This document shows, piece after piece, positions 25,893 through 36,011 of a stretch of DNA of 36,011 nt. Position 1 is the first letter of the stretch; every line of letters begins with the position of its first letter. This DNA is from Candidatus Treponema equi (GTDB lineage Bacteria > Spirochaetota > Spirochaetia > Treponematales > Treponemataceae): positions 1-36,011 of the forward strand of contig JAGHUO010000061.1 in assembly GCA_018064785.1 (NCBI GenBank), read 5' to 3'. The translations under genes were made by a program, and so were the position numbers. The notes beneath the pieces were generated by a model that saw only the letters and a program-made list of their open reading frames with translations, had not been told where the DNA came from and did not search any database.

Positions 25893-28688
25893 TCACTTCT
25901 GCAAGAGAGTGAATGTTCCCTTGATTTCGTACTTTGTTCCTACCCAAGAAGGGTCCATGTCCTCAGGATTTTCCGCATTGTATGCAACACCAAAGTCATC
26001 GTCCTTTGTCGGATATTTACCGTTGATGAAGAATTTCTCAATGAGGGAAATATAATACTTTGCGACATTGTCTTTTCCATCTGCATTGCTGCACTTCTGG
26101 AACATTTCGAGAGCCCTGGCATACTCACCTGACTCAAAGGTCTTCATGGCAATCTCCCAGCATTCAACGTATTTGAGGAGTTTTTCGGAAGCTTCCGCCT
26201 TTGTTTCCATGAGTTCAAAAAGACGCATAGGAGTCTTTACATTGACAACCTGAACGCGGTCAAGGGAGCGGACAACAAACTCGTCGCCCAGAAGATTGCG
26301 GGTTGCTTCGCTTATGAGAATTCCGCCTGTAGAGTACTGCTTGTTTACACCCTCAAGACGGCTGGCAAGGTTTACGTTGTTACCCATCATGGTGTAGTTC
26401 TTCTTGTTGTCGGAACCCATGAAGCCTGCGACCATTTCACCGGAGTTGATACCGATACGGGTAAAGATATTGCGTTTTCCTGCAACCATTTTCTTGAAGG
26501 CGCTGTGAAGTTCCTCTGAAATTTCAGGGACACTTTCCATGGCGGCAAACTCAACGATCTTCTTGTTCATTTCTGTCTCGAACTTTTTCATGGTGATGGC
26601 AGCACGGCATGCACGTGACGCATGATCAGTAAGCTTTAGAGGTGCACCAACGAGAGCAACGATGGCATCACCTTCATACTTGTCGACCATTCCGCCTTCA
26701 TCCATGATCTTGTCGGACATAGGTGTAAGATAGTAGTTAAGGAGAGCAACAAGTTCGGCAGCGTTGAGAAGCTCAGAGAAGCCTGAGAACTTCTGGATGT
26801 CTGTAAAGATGGCTGTCATCTCACGGCTGTCACCACCAAGCTTAAGGCTTGAAGGATTGTTCACGATGTCGGCAACAACGTCCTTTGAAAGACACTGGCT
26901 GAACGCATTTGTGATGAATTTCTTTTCATGTGACGCCGTAAGGAATCCAATGATTGTCGTTGCAAGGAACGAAAGGAACAGAGAAGAAAACGGAATTACA
27001 ATACCGATATAGACCCTTGTCATGATGAAGTAAAGGAGGATTGCACCTGTTGTAAGGATCAAGAAAAGTCCACCTGTAAGAAGCTGCTTTGTCGTGCTCT
27101 TGATCTTGTCGGCAAGGTAGCATGAAACAAGACAGAGGACTGCGGCGATGACGATGGAAATCCATACAGGACTGTCATCAGTGAAATCCTGTGTAAGGAT
27201 CTGATTGGCGATGGTATAGTGGACACCAGGATTTGGATAGTGTTCCTCGTACTGTGTAAGACCATAGTCGGTAGTACTTGTGGCACAGGTACCAATAATA
27301 CAGATGGCATTCTTTACTATAGATTCGATTTCCTCCCGTGATGCCACAAGATCAACAAGCTGCTGACGGCATACACCAAAAGCTTCCTTAATGAAGTCCA
27401 GGGTTTCATCATCCAGCTCATCGGAAGAAACAAGGCTGTTCTCATATTCCGCAGAAAGGAATTTTTCTGCACTGCGGAAGAATTCTTTTCTGAAGTCAAA
27501 ATAGGTGGCGTAAGTGATTCCGTTTTCCTCATCGATACCCTTGTAGAGTTCGGACTTTACGAAGGCTGCGTTGTCATAGCAGTCAACGGTTGTGTTTTCC
27601 TCATCCCATTCAGAGAAGAATCCATTATCAGCCATTTCTCTGAGATTATCCACAAACTGTCTTTCAAGAACTGAAAGGCGATAGATGTTCCAGAGCGGAA
27701 TGGAATTGTAGTCCACATATTTTTTGTTTGCGTACTTGAGGAGGACACTTCCGTCTTCTGCACGAGGAATCTTTATATCTTTTGTGGTATTGGCATCAAT
27801 CTTTGCATCCTTAAGTATGATTGAACTGTCAGAAATGATGACCTGAGGATTTCCATAATGGGCAAGAAGCGGAACAAAAAGAAGCTGACCGTAATACTTT
27901 CCGTCAAACTTGCATACAAGATGAACGCGTCTTATATAACCATCAAGATCAGGATCTGCATTTACAAAACCTGCACTGCGGGTCTTTTCCATAAACTCAG
28001 AGATGGCAGGCTGTCCACCTGTATAACGAGGAGTAAGTGTATCCCCTTCCACAACAACATTATCAAGAGCGATGTATTCTTCAATATATCTTTTTTCCTT
28101 TCCCTCAAGGACCACATCATTGTTGAATGTGAGGGTAAGGAAGTTGTTCTCAAAAAATTTAATAGAGTTAGCAAGAACCTCATCCTGGCTATGGATTACA
28201 TACTGGATGGAAGTATTAAGGATGTCCTTGGCATCACTCACAGCACCGGAAAGCATCTTCTTTGCTTCATCTGCATCTGACGGTTTGAGGGAACCGCTGG
28301 CATACTCATCGATGATGTATTCCGCACTTTCTGTGACGGCGGCAAAGTTGGTATCAACATATTTTGGCAGCGTATTCTTTACATAATCCTCATCAACCTT
28401 TGCCTCGCTTTTATCAAGGAAGCTTAAATCGAATACGACCGATTCAGTACCCATTTCCTTTAGGGAAACAAGCACGTCGCCATAAACGTCACGACTGAAA
28501 GGCCATGTCCCGATATTTTCAACAGAACTGTCGTCTACATTTATCATGACCACAGACTTCTGTTCATCAAGTTCAGGTACAGCCCTCTGGAACCAGTCCG
28601 CAGCCTTGTAGTCATAGCAGGTGAATACAAAAAGTGAACAGACCGCAACAGAAAGAACGGCGATAAGCAACGGAGTAAACTTTTTCAT
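25893..28688 (-). CDS. CHASE2 sensor - class III adenylate cyclase
   Basis: 931 residues. An N-terminal membrane segment (about 5-24) is followed by a long extracytoplasmic CHASE2 domain (about 28-500, starting VVMINVDDSSVENIGTWPFSRDVYG), with helical inserts near 95-180 and 340-460. Three membrane segments follow (about 508-527, 536-556, 560-583), then a class III cyclase domain (about 622-825). Metal-binding Asp630 (IFTDIQKF) and Asp674 (KYEGDAIVA), adenine-selecting Lys670 with Thr766, and transition-state Asn772 and Arg777 (VNLASRLE) are all kept. It should therefore make cAMP. A short TPR-like helical tail (about 835-890) ends the protein. It is downstream of two FecR-like genes, with a terminator in between. 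AAAGGA precedes ATG. Confidence 0.92.
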   Translation of the reverse strand: MKKFTPLLIAVLSVAVCSLFVFTCYDYKAADWFQRAVPELDEQKSVVMINVDDSSVENIGTWPFSRDVYGDVLVSLKEMGTESVVFDLSFLDKSEAKVDEDYVKNTLPKYVDTNFAAVTESAEYIIDEYASGSLKPSDADEAKKMLSGAVSDAKDILNTSIQYVIHSQDEVLANSIKFFENNFLTLTFNNDVVLEGKEKRYIEEYIALDNVVVEGDTLTPRYTGGQPAISEFMEKTRSAGFVNADPDLDGYIRRVHLVCKFDGKYYGQLLFVPLLAHYGNPQVIISDSSIILKDAKIDANTTKDIKIPRAEDGSVLLKYANKKYVDYNSIPLWNIYRLSVLERQFVDNLREMADNGFFSEWDEENTTVDCYDNAAFVKSELYKGIDEENGITYATYFDFRKEFFRSAEKFLSAEYENSLVSSDELDDETLDFIKEAFGVCRQQLVDLVASREEIESIVKNAICIIGTCATSTTDYGLTQYEEHYPNPGVHYTIANQILTQDFTDDSPVWISIVIAAVLCLVSCYLADKIKSTTKQLLTGGLFLILTTGAILLYFIMTRVYIGIVIPFSSLFLSFLATTIIGFLTASHEKKFITNAFSQCLSKDVVADIVNNPSSLKLGGDSREMTAIFTDIQKFSGFSELLNAAELVALLNYYLTPMSDKIMDEGGMVDKYEGDAIVALVGAPLKLTDHASRACRAAITMKKFETEMNKKIVEFAAMESVPEISEELHSAFKKMVAGKRNIFTRIGINSGEMVAGFMGSDNKKNYTMMGNNVNLASRLEGVNKQYSTGGILISEATRNLLGDEFVVRSLDRVQVVNVKTPMRLFELMETKAEASEKLLKYVECWEIAMKTFESGEYARALEMFQKCSNADGKDNVAKYYISLIEKFFINGKYPTKDDDFGVAYNAENPEDMDPSWVGTKYEIKGTFTLLQK

Positions 28689-28710
28689 AAAACTATCCTT
28701 TATTGTTATA

Positions 28711-28741
28711 AAAATAAAAAAGGGGGCTTCAAGGGCCCCCC
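28711..28741 (-). terminator. Intrinsic terminator between FecR-like gene 2 and the cyclase
   Basis: On the minus strand GGGGGGCCCTTGAAGCCCCC is followed by TTTTTTATTTTTAT. The G/C-rich stem plus U-run is a strong terminator 23 nt upstream of the cyclase ATG. Partial read-through would make the cyclase the low-level product of the unit. Confidence 0.8.
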
Positions 28742-28760
28742 ACTATCGAAAATATTAAGA

Positions 28761-29168
28761 CTACTCTTCCCAGAGAACATCAGATTTTGCTTCTGATGCG
28801 CGGGATGAAGCTGTTGCCGCACCCTTGCTGCTCTTTCCTGCAGCCTGAGCAATGTCACCCTTAGTAACCTTTGAACCTATCTTAACGCCGTTCTTAGATT
28901 TTCCGGAAACACAAAGCTCAGAGATTTTTCCCTTTTTCATAGGCTTGATGGAAAAATCCTTGCCATCATGGTTAACAACAAGAGTTGAATTAAGACCGGT
29001 GCTTACACTGACATCAGAATCAATGCTCATCCCTGTCTTTATATCAACAGTCTTACCTTTAGAATCCACACAGGTAACATTACCTGTCACTTCCTTAACT
29101 GTCCAGCTTTCAGCAAAGGCAAATACCCCTGCCACAAGCATCGCAATCATGAACACATTTTTTTTCAT
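28761..29168 (-). CDS. Small exported FecR-like protein 2
   Basis: 135 residues. A signal peptide (MKKNVFMIAMLVAGVFAFA) precedes a beta-rich region (about 22-80) with the FecR-like pattern VTGNV...DIKTGMSIDSDVSVSTGLNSTLVVNHDGKDFSIKP. The C-terminal part is basic and ends KSSKGAATASSRASEAKSDVLWEE, almost the same tail as its neighbour. It is a tandem paralogue of the gene just upstream (32-nt gap) and lies upstream of the CHASE2 cyclase. It is probably periplasmic. Function is unknown; a partner or ligand sensor for CHASE2 is inference. A weak GGAG lies 11 nt before the start. Confidence 0.7.
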   Translation of the reverse strand: MKKNVFMIAMLVAGVFAFAESWTVKEVTGNVTCVDSKGKTVDIKTGMSIDSDVSVSTGLNSTLVVNHDGKDFSIKPMKKGKISELCVSGKSKNGVKIGSKVTKGDIAQAAGKSSKGAATASSRASEAKSDVLWEE

Positions 29169-29200
29169 CTTTCTTTACTCTCCACCAGAATTAAAAAAGA

Positions 29201-29611
29201 TTACTCGTCCCAGTCCAATTCTGCCTTAGCTTCAGAAGCACGTGAAGAAGCGGTTGCCTGCCCCTTGCTTGACTTGTCAGACTTTGCGGCAACTGAATCG
29301 TTCTTGAGAGAACCCTTCTTGATTGACTTTGCTGTCTTTGAAGCTTCACCAACAAGCTTGTCCAATGCACCATTCTGCATTGCCTTGATTGTAATCTTGT
29401 TGCTGCCATCAGCAACTACAAGAGTTGAGTTAAGAGCTGTCTTTACAACTGTAGCAGACGAGATCTTCTGTCCGTTCTCAACATCCTTCCAGGTACCTGG
29501 TTCTGCTTCATACTGAACCTTACCCTTGAACGAATCAACGACGTAAGCGTCTGCTGCAAAAAGAGACACAGCAGCAAATGCCATTGCGATAAAAGACATT
29601 ATCTTTTTCAT
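29201..29611 (-). CDS. Small exported FecR-like protein 1
   Basis: 136 residues. It has a signal peptide (MKKIMSFIAMAFAAVSLFA) and a FecR-like beta region (YVVDSFKGKVQYE...GTWKDVENGQKISSATVVKTALNSTLVV...NKITIKAMQNG, about 22-80). A Lys/Ser-rich segment follows, and the terminal block reads KSSKGQATASSRASEAKAELDWDE. It is a paralogue of the next gene; the shared VKTALNSTLVV-type core and the tail are the best conserved parts. A strong promoter (TTGATT-16-TATAAT) and AGGAGT ribosome binding site suggest high expression. It is probably periplasmic; the ligand is unknown. Confidence 0.72.
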   Translation of the reverse strand: MKKIMSFIAMAFAAVSLFAADAYVVDSFKGKVQYEAEPGTWKDVENGQKISSATVVKTALNSTLVVADGSNKITIKAMQNGALDKLVGEASKTAKSIKKGSLKNDSVAAKSDKSSKGQATASSRASEAKAELDWDE

Positions 29612-29625
29612 AATAAAACTCCTCT

Positions 29626-29681
29626 CTCAGGCCCCACCCGAGAAAAACAAAAGGTATGGACGGACTCCTTCTAATACCGTC
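29626..29681 (-). promoter_or_regulatory. Structured 5' leader of the FecR-like operon
   Basis: In the roughly 75-nt leader the minus strand carries GACGG/CCGTC (29677-29681 with 29659-29663) and, sharing bases with it, GGTAT/ATACC (29674-29678 with 29653-29657), so the two are mutually exclusive. A CTCGGG/CCTGAG hairpin (29626-29642) abuts the AGGAGT ribosome binding site. This could be a regulatory leader; no known riboswitch is recognised. Confidence 0.35.
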
Positions 29682-29691
29682 ACAATTTTTC

Positions 29692-29719
29692 ATTATACAT
29701 AAAAAGTAGATGTAATCAA
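29692..29719 (-). promoter_or_regulatory. Promoter of the FecR-like/CHASE2 cyclase operon
   Basis: TTGATT (29714-29719), a 16-nt spacer, and a perfect TATAAT (29692-29697) on the minus strand, giving a leader of about 75 nt. Confidence 0.65.
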
Positions 29720-29761
29720 CCTTTTATGTAAAAAAAAATAAATTTTATAAAACCCTGTTTT

Positions 29762-29870
29762 TGGGACAAAAAGTCCCATCAAGGACCTTTGGACATGCGG
29801 CTGGAAGCTACGCTGCCATTTCAGGGATCCTAGTAAGTTGCTTAGGGTCCCTGATCTTGTCGAAGGGCCC
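29762..29870. repeat. Intergenic inverted repeats and a degenerate dispersed-repeat copy
   Basis: TCAGGGATCCTA (29821-29832) and TAGGGTCCCTGA (29843-29854) form a 12-bp stem with one wobble. The right arm also overlaps GGGTCCCTGATCTTGTCGAAGGGCCC, which can fold on itself and resembles the dispersed GAGCTTGTCGAA-type repeat. A small hairpin TGGGAC-AAAAA-GTCCCA lies at 29762-29778. One of these probably ends transcription of the large gene; none has a good U-tract. Confidence 0.45.
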
Positions 29871-29874
29871 TATT

Positions 29875-32800
29875 CTACTTCTGTCTTCTGCGGCGAAGAA
29901 CAAAGGCACCGGAACCAAGAACAAGGAGAGCGACGGCTGCGGCAACAGGAGCCACAGGAACTCTTCTGTCCTCACCCTTCTTCAATGCGGAACCACCAGA
30001 AACCGCATTGCTCCACTGGTCAATGCCCGTGGCATTGGCTTCTATAATAGTCTCGCCTGTAGAAAGGGCGGCTGCTGCAGTTCCGGCTGAAACTGACTTT
30101 TCTTCAACACTTATCGCATCAGCATCCAGAACGGAAATGCTTTCCCTGAGCTTTCTGGCCTCTTCCTTCTGCTGCTTTGCAAGGAGCTTTGCCTGCTTCT
30201 TTGCTTCCTTGGCGGCGGCGATCTCTGCCTGACGGGCGGCCTTCTTTTCTGCCTTCAGTTGCTTTCTCTGCTCTGACGTAAGGTTCTTGTCCTCATAGGT
30301 GCGGCCAAAGAGAGTTCCGATGGCATTGGAAACAGATGTCGACATCTTGCTGAAGAACGAGCCTGAAATTGAACGGGTTGCAATGACCTCATCAGAAATA
30401 TGGTCGGATGCATCTACAATTTTAATCGAGGTAACCGTTGTTTCATTAGGCAACGTAAGCCATGCAGTAACAGTTCCCACTGTCATGAAATTGTTTGGCA
30501 ATGTAAGAGTAAGAGTCTTGTTGCCTTCACCACCCTTTGTAGCACGTGCATCTGTAACCTGGTATTCTGTCTTAGATCCATTTACCGCTGACAACTGTAC
30601 AGTAACAGAAGGTGTATCGCTTACTTCTTTATCACAAACCAGCATAACGGACTTGATACCAGCAGAGGCAGGATAGTTTTCAATTGTAAGCGTATTTCCG
30701 GAAACCTGTGCATTTGCTCCTGTCGGGGCGGAATACATACCAATCCAGTTTTGCTGAGCATTATTTGGACTACCAATATTATAAGGACATGAAATATTAC
30801 CTACCCTATCCTTGAGCCAGATCATCATATGCCCATGCATTATTGCACTTACTTCAGGAAGCGTGACAGTTAAATTTCCTCCACTGACGGCTACATAGTC
30901 AGACCAAGTATCACCACCAACGGTACTATCAGGAGTTATTGAAGTAAAGTTATCATCGTAGGTGCCATAAGTAAATGAGTATGAATATTCTGATGAACAT
31001 TCAATCGAATCTGAAATTGGAATAGATATTTTAGTATCTTTTGAATAAAGCCACGTTATCCAATCACCATTTTCAGGATTTGCCTTATCCTTCAACTCGT
31101 AAAACTCACCTTCCAATACAGAATAACTTCCTACAGTCTTATAGTTTCGATCTACAACTGTAGTATTCTTTTGTCTGATTTTCTGAGTTGATCCATCTCC
31201 TGTAGTCGGTGCAACACCATCTCGTATCAAGGTTACGGTAAAGGTCGACTTATTGCCTACGTTATCCATTGCGGTTATAGTCCACTCGTCACCATCTGCA
31301 GCTTTTGAAGCTGAAGGTGAACCTTCTTTCAAACCGGAACCTGCATCTGCCAACGCATCCACATACTCAAATGGATTTACAAGATCCGTAAGCTGATCTG
31401 CCTTGCAGTAAACTGTTCCACCACTGACAGTCTTCCAATCGGCTGATTCAGCATAGATATATTTTGCTTCATCATCCAAAGGAATTCCCTTGATCTTATT
31501 AATTGCAAGACCTGAAGGAGATTCGCTGTCTGCAACAAGTGTAACCTGAACTACATCATCATCAGATGTTACGTTGCCAAGTTTGTCTTTTGCCTTGAAT
31601 GAGAGCACAACGCTTCCTGAAGCACCAAGACCTGAAACTGTGAATTTATTGGAATCAGAACCTGTTCCCTGTGTAACTGTCACACCACTTGCAGTACAGA
31701 TAAATTCAGCAAGGTCACTATCACTACTGCTGCATGTGAAGACGATGGATTCAGGCTTGTGTTCCGCATTATAGTAAATGTTTGCATCCTTTTTGTAGAC
31801 ATAGTCACTGCTGTCATCCACAGAGACGGTAAATGTCGGTGGTATATTATCCTCTACCAAAGCAAGTTTGTATGAGGTTGAACTTGCATTCCATACATTG
31901 TCATAAGCATAGAAATACAGATTCGTTTTACCAGAGAGGTCACTACCTGTCAAAGCAACGGAAGAAGATACATCAACTGATGCAACCGGTGCAGATTCCG
32001 TTGTACTATATTTAACTCCTGCAAATCCAGATTTAACTGTACCATTATCAGTTGCTGTGAAATTCAGAGTTCCGCTAGCATCGGATTTGAAATACAGTTT
32101 ACCCGCTCCATCATAGTACATACCAGCGGCACCTTCCGCCAATCCCTGAATCTGAGGTGCAGAAGGTACAACCTTGTCATAATACCATTTCTGCTTATCA
32201 GCAAACACAAGGCTGTATGTCGGAGAGTCAGAATTGCTGTAGAATGAAATATAGAAATCATCGCCATTATTTCTGTCATTGATTAAAGCCGGTAAATAAA
32301 TCTTGTACTTGCGAAGATTTCCTTCCAGCTGCTCATGATCAGATGATACAAAGTCTTTATAGGCAAGCTGATCTGAGCGCAATTTAGATGAGCTAGACTT
32401 AAGAATTTTCCATCCCTTAGGTTCGTATCCAGTTTTGTAAGCCAAGGTAACTTCAATGTAAGCTGCATCATTGTAATAGTTGTGTGTATCAGAAGACCAG
32501 ATTCTTGTTCCCTTTGTACTATCAACCTTTACTTCAATTTTTCCTTCAGAAGGAGCTGGAGATACATCCGGATTCTTTGCGTCAAATTTTATTGTAAGCT
32601 GTGCAGGAGATGTACTTACATTGCCAGCATAGTCAACAGCCCAGAAATAGACCGTAAGACCTGAAGTATTTGCAAGAGAAATTTTTCTTTCCTCAAAACT
32701 GGTTGACAGCTCTTTTCCTGCTTCAAATACAAAAGAAGCAGCAACAGTTGCCAAAGAAGCAGGGGCAGCCGAAGTTTCTGTCATGACATATCCCTTGATT

Positions 32801-35800
32801 CCGCTTGTGTCAGTACCTGTTGGAGTTATCTCTATCTTTGAACTATAGTCTCTATTTGTAACAAGCAGACTCTTTGATGATGCCTCATAATTCAAGAATG
32901 AATTCGTTGATACTCCTGTATCATCAGATGACTCACCCCAGCTTCTAGAATCATAATTCCAGTAATTTCCAGTACGTTTGAAATTAGTGGAAAGATCAGT
33001 AAAGCTTACACTCGGTACCACATTGTCGTAGACAAAGTTAGCATTGGAAATTGGTGTATCTCCGCCATTGACAGTGAAGCTGTCTACTGTTTTAACATTG
33101 CCGAGAATGTCCTGTAGTTTTACCCAGAATGCAGAACTGTCATTATTTTTAAAAATTTCTGTTACACCTGTAGGATCAACACTACCATCGGTTGATATGG
33201 AGTCATCATTAAATCTAGTGAAAATGCTTTGTTTACCATCTGTGCCGGCACCCCACTGGTAGGCACCAAGACCTGCATCTGTGTCCCTTGCACTCAGAGA
33301 GAATTTCAATTCATTAAAATAGAACTTGCCACCAACTACAGAAGATCCTGTATTACCGGTAACTGAAGCGGTTGTTGCAGTCGGGGCCTTATTATCATAC
33401 GGAAGAATATATGCGTAATAGAATACAGCGTTACCCGCAAAGTCTGTGGCAGAAACCTCGTAGAGATTTTCAACAGATTGTCCTGCAGTTGATACATATA
33501 TTGAATTACGTATAGAGCTTTCTCCTTCTTTATATATTTCTTTTCCATTGTTTTCAAGAGAAACTACATCAGGAATTTTTTCAAACAACATTTGTTTGAC
33601 ATTTTGATTTTCATTTGTAAATACAATTTTTCCCTGATCAGTCTGATCCACCCATTCATTATTGCCCCATTTGCGGATGGAAACCTGTGAAATTCCACCA
33701 TCGTCAACTGCCCAAACATTAACAAAGAAGGCAGCATTATTGCTTCGAATCTTGAAGAATCGGCTCTTTTCATCTGGAGTTCCGTATTGGTATGCATTAT
33801 CAACATCAGACTTTGATTCATACTGTTTTGAAACATTTGAAGCAAGGGAATACAACTTGTCATTCCCATTATTTGAATAACCAGACTCTTTTTTATAACT
33901 ATTAAGACCACTTCCCTGATACAAAGACTCAGGTGCAATATTCCATGTCATTACACCAGAAGGTTTTGCTTCTGATCCATAGACCTTTTTATAAAGACTA
34001 TCTGGTGTATGGAATGCAGAAGTATCATTGAGCTTTGTAACACCAACACGCATGGTTGGCGCACTGTCATCAACTTTAACGTTGAGATTACATGTCCAGT
34101 AGTTTCCTGTGTTGTCGAATATATAGTATTCAAGAGTCTTTGCTGTTGTAGCATTTGCATCATTATAGATAAAATACGGAATATCCACAGTCAGATAGCC
34201 ATCAGCAATCGGTTTTGCGCTGCCCTTTACATTAGGTATAAGTCCGGCACCATAGACACCGGAGCTTTTACCTGTTCCGCTACCATCGCTAGTACGTTCC
34301 TGGAAGTCAGTAAACCAGTCAGCAGGTATCCTAATGGAATATGGGTTTTTTTTATCGCTATCGCTGGCAGTTTTGAAAGCTTCACTTGATCCTGCAATAG
34401 TGACATTTATCTGCTTTCTTGAATCAGCTCCAGGCAAAGAAAGATATGAATTACCAGGGTTAGCCTTACCGCCAGTCCATGTAGATCCATCTGCTGTAGC
34501 AGGTTTAGAGTTATCCATCATCCACAAGTTTCCAAGTTTTGTGACAGAAACATTTCCTACACGGTCGCGGATATACAGGTTGAAGGTTCTTTGATTGTAC
34601 TCTGTTGTAGCGCCCTTGATATAACTCAAATTCACAGGAACCTGCGCATTGACTCTTTTACTGTCATCTTTACCGCCGGTATGATTTATATACCAGTGTC
34701 CGTCGCTTCTATTTCCTTCCGAGTCACTCTGACGGTTGTCATCACCTTCCTTTTCACCAAAGCAATATCTGTAACCGTCAATTCCAGATGGGGAATCTGA
34801 GACATCGATATCAAAGAAACATAATACAGGATTTACAGCATATGTATTATTTCCAACTTCTTCTCTTGCATAGTCACCACCAGAGACATTATCTGCAGTA
34901 TTGCCAACATAAGTGACATCTCCAATGACATTGATATCATTCATGACAAGACCGTCGGCTTCAGCCTCGTTGATCATGGCAGAATATCTTGAATCCGACA
35001 TATTTGAAGTTTGAGTCGTGATGTATTTCTTTTTGAAAATCGTAGGTGGAACAAGACGCTTGATGTCCTCGGCATCTGTAAAAGCAAGGTGGCTGTAATG
35101 CCTGTAGGTTCCAAAGCTAGAGAATTTTGAGGCATTAGTTTCTGTCTTTGCAGTATCATAAGTTGCCGGGTAATCTGCTACCGTTCTAAGCTTTACCTTC
35201 GGCGGCTCGTCGTTCCAGACAAATTTATCTACATCACTTCCATTTTTTATCTGGTAAACACCCTTGTTGCCTACATAGTCTTCCAGATAAAGCCAGAGAG
35301 TACCGATTTCACCTTCTGCACCATGCGGCATGAGGATGTTCCAGATACGTTTATCAACATCAACACTCATCTGCTTGAAGCATGACCACTTTGTAAGGGA
35401 AGGAGTTGACGCTCCTGCAAACTCTGATTCCTCAGGCTCACCTGTGCCTTTACGGAACAAAACCCTGGCACGCAATGTGAAATCAGAAGGTTTTGAATCA
35501 TCTTCATAAACTTCCTGAACATTTTTTGTTGTTGCTTCCTGAGCATTCCAGCGAATAGGCTCTTCAGACTTCATTTTAAGCTGGAGATATACTTTGTGAT
35601 TGTAGTACTGGATATTATTTACAGTATCACGGTAAAGGGCACCCAAACGGTCACAGCCAACAGCATAAAAAGTATTTCCATCAGTAATGTTTTTTCCATT
35701 CTCTTCGTTACCATCGCAGCCACCGGCATAGATAATGAACTGATCATTAAGTTTTTCTTCGATACCAGAACTCCATACCACAGGTTCAGGCAACTTCTTG

Positions 35801-35904
35801 TCATATACAAAGCTGATTGCTTCACCACCCATAAGCTTATATTTATCATCCGAAGAATGGTCTGAGTTAATTTCTCCAGCTTCCAGCTCATTAGGACGAA
35901 TCAT
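29875..35904 (-). CDS. Very large Ig-like repeat surface protein (3' part), C-terminal membrane anchor
   Basis: 2009 codons from the first ATG after an in-frame TAG. There is no signal peptide at this start and no Shine-Dalgarno. The protein is a string of beta-sandwich, Ig-like units. At least nine units end with a D-x-x-GN motif (for example EDYVGNKG, RDRVGNVS, VDYAGNVS, KDKLGNVT, MDNVGNKS), often followed by D-x-x-P/AP linkers. Near the end is a Lys/Ala/Glu-rich helix of about 50 residues (SEQRKQLKAEKKAARQAEIA), then a C-terminal hydrophobic segment (VAAAVALLVLGSGAFVL) and the basic end RRRRQK, like a sorting or anchor signal but without LPXTG or PEP motifs. It is probably an exported adhesin or structural stalk, truncated at its N-terminus by the TAG. 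Confidence 0.75.
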   Translation of the reverse strand: MIRPNELEAGEINSDHSSDDKYKLMGGEAISFVYDKKLPEPVVWSSGIEEKLNDQFIIYAGGCDGNEENGKNITDGNTFYAVGCDRLGALYRDTVNNIQYYNHKVYLQLKMKSEEPIRWNAQEATTKNVQEVYEDDSKPSDFTLRARVLFRKGTGEPEESEFAGASTPSLTKWSCFKQMSVDVDKRIWNILMPHGAEGEIGTLWLYLEDYVGNKGVYQIKNGSDVDKFVWNDEPPKVKLRTVADYPATYDTAKTETNASKFSSFGTYRHYSHLAFTDAEDIKRLVPPTIFKKKYITTQTSNMSDSRYSAMINEAEADGLVMNDINVIGDVTYVGNTADNVSGGDYAREEVGNNTYAVNPVLCFFDIDVSDSPSGIDGYRYCFGEKEGDDNRQSDSEGNRSDGHWYINHTGGKDDSKRVNAQVPVNLSYIKGATTEYNQRTFNLYIRDRVGNVSVTKLGNLWMMDNSKPATADGSTWTGGKANPGNSYLSLPGADSRKQINVTIAGSSEAFKTASDSDKKNPYSIRIPADWFTDFQERTSDGSGTGKSSGVYGAGLIPNVKGSAKPIADGYLTVDIPYFIYNDANATTAKTLEYYIFDNTGNYWTCNLNVKVDDSAPTMRVGVTKLNDTSAFHTPDSLYKKVYGSEAKPSGVMTWNIAPESLYQGSGLNSYKKESGYSNNGNDKLYSLASNVSKQYESKSDVDNAYQYGTPDEKSRFFKIRSNNAAFFVNVWAVDDGGISQVSIRKWGNNEWVDQTDQGKIVFTNENQNVKQMLFEKIPDVVSLENNGKEIYKEGESSIRNSIYVSTAGQSVENLYEVSATDFAGNAVFYYAYILPYDNKAPTATTASVTGNTGSSVVGGKFYFNELKFSLSARDTDAGLGAYQWGAGTDGKQSIFTRFNDDSISTDGSVDPTGVTEIFKNNDSSAFWVKLQDILGNVKTVDSFTVNGGDTPISNANFVYDNVVPSVSFTDLSTNFKRTGNYWNYDSRSWGESSDDTGVSTNSFLNYEASSKSLLVTNRDYSSKIEITPTGTDTSGIKGYVMTETSAAPASLATVAASFVFEAGKELSTSFEERKISLANTSGLTVYFWAVDYAGNVSTSPAQLTIKFDAKNPDVSPAPSEGKIEVKVDSTKGTRIWSSDTHNYYNDAAYIEVTLAYKTGYEPKGWKILKSSSSKLRSDQLAYKDFVSSDHEQLEGNLRKYKIYLPALINDRNNGDDFYISFYSNSDSPTYSLVFADKQKWYYDKVVPSAPQIQGLAEGAAGMYYDGAGKLYFKSDASGTLNFTATDNGTVKSGFAGVKYSTTESAPVASVDVSSSVALTGSDLSGKTNLYFYAYDNVWNASSTSYKLALVEDNIPPTFTVSVDDSSDYVYKKDANIYYNAEHKPESIVFTCSSSDSDLAEFICTASGVTVTQGTGSDSNKFTVSGLGASGSVVLSFKAKDKLGNVTSDDDVVQVTLVADSESPSGLAINKIKGIPLDDEAKYIYAESADWKTVSGGTVYCKADQLTDLVNPFEYVDALADAGSGLKEGSPSASKAADGDEWTITAMDNVGNKSTFTVTLIRDGVAPTTGDGSTQKIRQKNTTVVDRNYKTVGSYSVLEGEFYELKDKANPENGDWITWLYSKDTKISIPISDSIECSSEYSYSFTYGTYDDNFTSITPDSTVGGDTWSDYVAVSGGNLTVTLPEVSAIMHGHMMIWLKDRVGNISCPYNIGSPNNAQQNWIGMYSAPTGANAQVSGNTLTIENYPASAGIKSVMLVCDKEVSDTPSVTVQLSAVNGSKTEYQVTDARATKGGEGNKTLTLTLPNNFMTVGTVTAWLTLPNETTVTSIKIVDASDHISDEVIATRSISGSFFSKMSTSVSNAIGTLFGRTYEDKNLTSEQRKQLKAEKKAARQAEIAAAKEAKKQAKLLAKQQKEEARKLRESISVLDADAISVEEKSVSAGTAAAALSTGETIIEANATGIDQWSNAVSGGSALKKGEDRRVPVAPVAAAVALLVLGSGAFVLRRRRQK

Positions 35905-35907
35905 TAT

Positions 35908-36011
35908 CTAGTTAACATTTCCACAGTTATCCATGAGACAAAGTGTCATTGGAGCAATATGAGTCTTATTTTTAGGTATCTCAATCTCTATATCTTCACC
36001 AGGAACATAGT
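35908..36011 (-). pseudogene. Upstream coding part of the Ig-like gene, ending at an in-frame TAG
   Basis: Reading the minus strand in the same frame as the 2009-codon ORF, the window edge gives YVPGEDIEIEIPKNK and then MTLCLMDNCGNVN, followed by TAG (35908-35910), one Ile codon, and the ATG of the long ORF. DNCGNV is the same domain-end motif that recurs through the downstream ORF. This supports one gene interrupted by a single nonsense codon (or a base-call error), rather than two genes. The 5' part lies outside the window. Confidence 0.7.

Follow-up and report, generated by a model that had tools for sequence, protein, structure and literature searches.

A lone in-frame TAG in the gene for a giant, putatively Ig-like-unit lipoprotein of an uncultured gut Treponema, very probably a recent nonsense allele or a consensus error

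The window analysed here, a 36,011-bp stretch that is the entire contig C22 of a genome bin of Candidatus Treponema equi (1.79 Mb, 174 contigs, 71% complete), carries on its minus strand an in-frame TAG codon (35908-35910, located by reading the frame), closely followed by the start of a 2009-aa ORF (29875-35904, minus). Judged by homology, the sequences on both sides of this codon are one protein and one gene, and we regard it as highly probable that this is a single giant gene whose lone TAG arose very recently as a nonsense allele or else is an error of the consensus close to the contig end, two accounts that are about equally likely. The locus, from a gut Treponema not yet in culture, would encode one giant lipoprotein built of Ig-like units, whose best-aligned relative is about 4000 aa long; intact homologues in the same genomic place identify the 2009-aa ORF as the C-terminal half of this surface protein.

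The minus-strand frame at the site reads ...CLMDNCGNVN TAG ATA ATG ATT CGT..., and the last 101 bases of the contig, upstream of the TAG, comprise 33 open codons (35911-36009, minus) that homology and codon score assign to the same gene, of which they are a piece truncated at the contig end. The codon score of this stretch is matched by just 1.2% of equal-length, stop-free windows in wrong frames; by themselves, 33 open codons would be weak evidence. Directly adjoining the TAG is the unit-end motif MDNCGNVN (35911-35934, minus), which aligns with KDGCGNLN and MDNCGNIN in two relatives, L038 and L041, and which shares the D-x-x-GN signature that occurs 10 times downstream of the TAG against 0.8 occurrences expected from composition. 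An earlier sequence-only reading of this DNA had placed the TAG, the open frame upstream and the motif correctly, and its tally of at least nine downstream units sharing D-x-x-GN holds. It was also right that the 2009-aa ORF has no ribosome binding site: no Shine-Dalgarno sequence precedes it, its anti-Shine-Dalgarno pairing (-3.3 kcal/mol) compares with a median of -2.7 at random, and of the 30 other genes in the window 19 pair at -5.5 or stronger.

Because the window is a whole contig, 102 bases separate the TAG from a contig end, and roughly half of the giant gene is missing. None of the bin contigs overlaps this end, a search of the 71%-complete bin with the N-terminal half of the L038 protein did not find the corresponding half of the gene, and no same-species DNA was present in the viral contigs or plasmids searched. 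That a contig should end inside this gene is unsurprising given a length of 12 kb and fragmented assemblies, and the contigs of four relatives (L033, L041, L048 and L097) likewise stop within their copies.

Intact copies of the gene are found in relatives when genomic position guides the search. Direct searches with the 2009-aa protein retrieved no relative from 200 same-genus genomes or from GTDB 220, probably owing to too much divergence; after these searches failed, the neighbouring CHASE2-adenylate/guanylate cyclase gene (25893-28688, minus) was taken as a synteny anchor, and relatives were then located. Orthologues of the cyclase are common in the genus, in records from Treponema of rumen, horse and related sources, and in 9 of the 20 genomes read upstream of it a giant ORF stands directly before a small secreted protein. 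With four further giant-gene loci from GTDB 220 records, including that of T. ruminis RU1, the giant gene is kept in place upstream of small secreted proteins and the cyclase in 13 other species, among them the isolates T. zioleckii kT3 and T. ruminis RU1. All 12 ORFs that cover the stop position, ranging from 2250 to more than 6000 aa, are uninterrupted there, the thirteenth (L097) being left out of this count as too short to reach the position. Complete copies measure 3301, 3956, 4154 and 4206 aa, truncated copies reach at least 6019 aa, and lipoprotein-type signals ending ...TACKNWM or ...TSCKNWM stand at the N-terminus of the three longest of the complete ones. The nearest relatives are nonetheless distant, with 57-58% identity in the neighbouring cyclase and only about 25% in the giant protein. 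In the other 11 of the 20 syntenic loci the giant gene is absent beside the cyclase and the small proteins and cyclase remain, so that the gene is dispensable there across the genus.

Homology to one intact protein is found on each side of the stop and continues through it. In these comparisons the stop position was written as X and no base was restored. The alignment with L038 has no gap at the stop, reading EIEIPKNKTHIAPMTLCLMDNCGNVN-X-IMIRPNELEAGEINSD against EIDIP--DTNIPPLTLLLKDGCGNLNYMVLTFYDDRVTKANSD (E 8e-19), and the L038 match around the stop extends over 433 columns at about 25% identity (E 8e-20). On their own, the 33 residues upstream of the TAG find both L038 (E 5.6e-8) and L041 (E 2.1e-7), at 57% identity over 28 aa in each case; their 41.4 bits to relatives compare with a best of 28.6 bits in 300 shuffles. 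Additionally, the bin search with the N-terminal half of L038 returned a match at 35788-35994 with "1 TAG" inside (E 6.5e-4). The proposal of the sequence-only reading that one stop splits a single gene is thus borne out, both by homology through the stop and by the intact copies in relatives. In L038 the stop falls at about residue 1970 of 3956, the middle of the protein, which makes the 2009-aa ORF a C-terminal half and accounts for its lack of a signal peptide irrespective of the stop. The signal peptide that had been reported missing is indeed absent, but this is independent of the TAG: the true N-terminus would lie some 2000 residues upstream, off the contig.

The first of the two leading accounts, to which we give close to an even chance, is an error in the consensus or the assembly at the contig end, such that no cell has the stop. 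Consensus support is usually thinner near contig ends, and the TAG lies within 102 bases of one. The site is also the sole split gene found in a screen that used codon usage and frames continuing across a stop, covering 101 contigs (0.97 Mb, 54% of the bin). This screen returned 10 candidates without a ribosome binding site, two of them in the window (the TAG site and an adjacent gene pair); the other eight, judged by eye from their sequences alone, looked like neighbouring genes or shadow ORFs, and no second split gene was found in the 0.97 Mb screened. A "match with 1 TAG" on contig C108 was likewise rejected as a further internal TAG, being the normal end of a 653-aa gene. The intact state of all 12 relatives covering the site and the absence of any further stop in the 2009 codons downstream fit an error as well, whereas the clean, single-codon nature of the event, with coding-like sequence on both sides, speaks against it.

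The second account, whose chance we put somewhat short of even, is a real and recent nonsense allele, by which this strain in particular would have lost the surface protein in its full length. Surface proteins of giant size come at a high cost and often vary, and the absence of the giant gene beside the cyclase in 11 of 20 loci agrees with such a loss; against this account, the same evidence serves the error reading. The downstream half offers 829 single-base routes to a stop, which in the absence of selection should yield about 2.8 new stops for every 1% of divergence; as no second stop has appeared, a real allele must have arisen within about the last 1.1% of divergence, unless selection still acts on the downstream half. 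A consensus error predicts this same pattern. On either account the stop would be an isolated event, falling after a D-x-x-GN turn, probably in the last strand of one Ig-like unit. If the stop is real, translation would end there and yield an N-terminal half without the C-terminal helix, and any product restarted at the ATG three bases past the TAG would have no signal and presumably stay in the cytoplasm. The sequence-only reading had listed four options, of which two survive, a recent nonsense mutation and an error of assembly or sequencing; read-through or recoding is disfavoured, and slippage-type phase variation finds no support in the local sequence.

Several further explanations are far less probable. 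The TAG might mark a genuine gene boundary, with the 2009-aa ORF an independent gene translated by termination-reinitiation (TAG ATA ATG). The position of the ATG, three bases past the stop, would suit this arrangement, which we nevertheless consider very unlikely: there is no Shine-Dalgarno sequence, the product would be a C-terminally anchored protein without a signal peptide, homology to one continuous protein crosses the stop, and none of the relatives' loci has the same stop or a gene start at its position. Poorer still are the prospects of a TAG that is real and fixed in the species, with the giant protein made as two pieces or its long form produced by occasional read-through to give two length forms. 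Programmed or tolerated read-through, or amber suppression, yielding the full protein is highly improbable. The frame is perfectly kept on each side of the TAG, as read-through would require, but TAG is an ordinary stop in this genome and is not reassigned: far from being depleted, it terminates 11 of the 31 genes in the window, 97 of 355 long ORFs from the 101 bin contigs sampled and the 2009-aa ORF itself (29875 end), and release factor RF1 (prfA) is present (472 bits, cut-off 423). No tRNA with a CUA anticodon occurs among 34 tRNAs, a result that is not final in a bin only 71% complete; the RNA that follows the stop is no more stably folded than shuffled versions of it (z -0.36); and neither a second internal TAG in the 0.97 Mb screened nor a relative with a stop at this position was found. 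Surface antigens are often phase variable, but switching at this site is the least probable explanation of all, as there is no tandem repeat, homopolymer or slippery repeat at the TAG and no repeat of 25 nt or more involving the contig end, and a substituted base does not make a reversible switch. There is no sign of a new mechanism.

For annotation, the case is mainly a caution: the 2009-aa ORF would be taken for a whole cytoplasmic protein that has a start of its own, yet it represents the C-terminal half of a giant lipoprotein whose gene is broken by the stop codon and by the end of the contig. The more useful by-product is the locus itself, a little-characterised arrangement linking a giant lipoprotein to a CHASE2 cyclase, whose position is conserved in many gut Treponema. 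As represented by the window (25893-36009) and by relatives L033-L038, L041, L048, L049, L123, L128 and L161, it consists of a giant lipoprotein of putative Ig units, which ranges from 3300 to over 6000 aa, together with one or two secreted proteins of about 136 aa and the CHASE2-adenylate cyclase. In the window the small proteins are a 136-aa conserved neighbour of the giant gene (29201-29611, minus) and its 135-aa paralogue (28761-29168, minus); proteins of this type share the C-terminus ...TASSRASEAKxDxxWxE. Upstream of the giant gene, relatives encode TPR/outer-membrane-barrel-like proteins of 1125-1314 aa and about 650 aa (L035 1446-5192, L037 2099-5476, L038 2059-6003), and paralogues of these occur in the window's bin on contigs C144, C108 and C68. 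At its C-terminal end the 2009-aa ORF has a hydrophobic helix followed by RRRRQK (29878-29960, minus), and similar tails are seen in relatives. From these sequence features, an inner-membrane-like C-terminal anchor combined with the lipoprotein N-terminus of the relatives may leave both ends of the protein membrane-tethered; anchoring of the lipoprotein in the outer membrane is probable.

Comparison with known systems places the giant protein only loosely. Searches of the literature yielded nothing specific, no relative is found among solved structures, the window protein matches no Ig-like Pfam family, and its structure models are all-beta but at a confidence too low to be of use (pLDDT 34 and 46). 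An OmpL47-type domain (NF047446) gives a weak match in the 2009-aa ORF (E 1.4e-5, 25.4 bits) and also in L038; as the score falls under the curated cut-off of 40, the window protein is not filed as an OmpL47-type member. L038 additionally contains one Big_5 domain (PF13205) above cut-off (32.8 vs 23.6 bits). The two small secreted proteins of the window resemble the LapA-type "retention module" (NF033682) at sub-cut-off levels (E 3e-6 and 9e-4); this module is known as the N-terminal part of giant adhesins, whereas in the window a domain of this kind may form a protein of its own, encoded next to the giant gene. The closest counterparts are the syntenic giant lipoprotein genes of the 12 relatives listed above, which share with the window copy their place, their D-x-x-GN units and a C-terminal hydrophobic helix with a basic tail, but which are unbroken, whereas the window copy is split by the TAG and lacks its N-terminal half from the bin. 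Finally, nonsense alleles and consensus errors in draft genomes likewise show one in-frame stop in a reading frame that is otherwise intact and has intact orthologues, and compared with these the present case has nothing distinctive except the unusual length of the gene.
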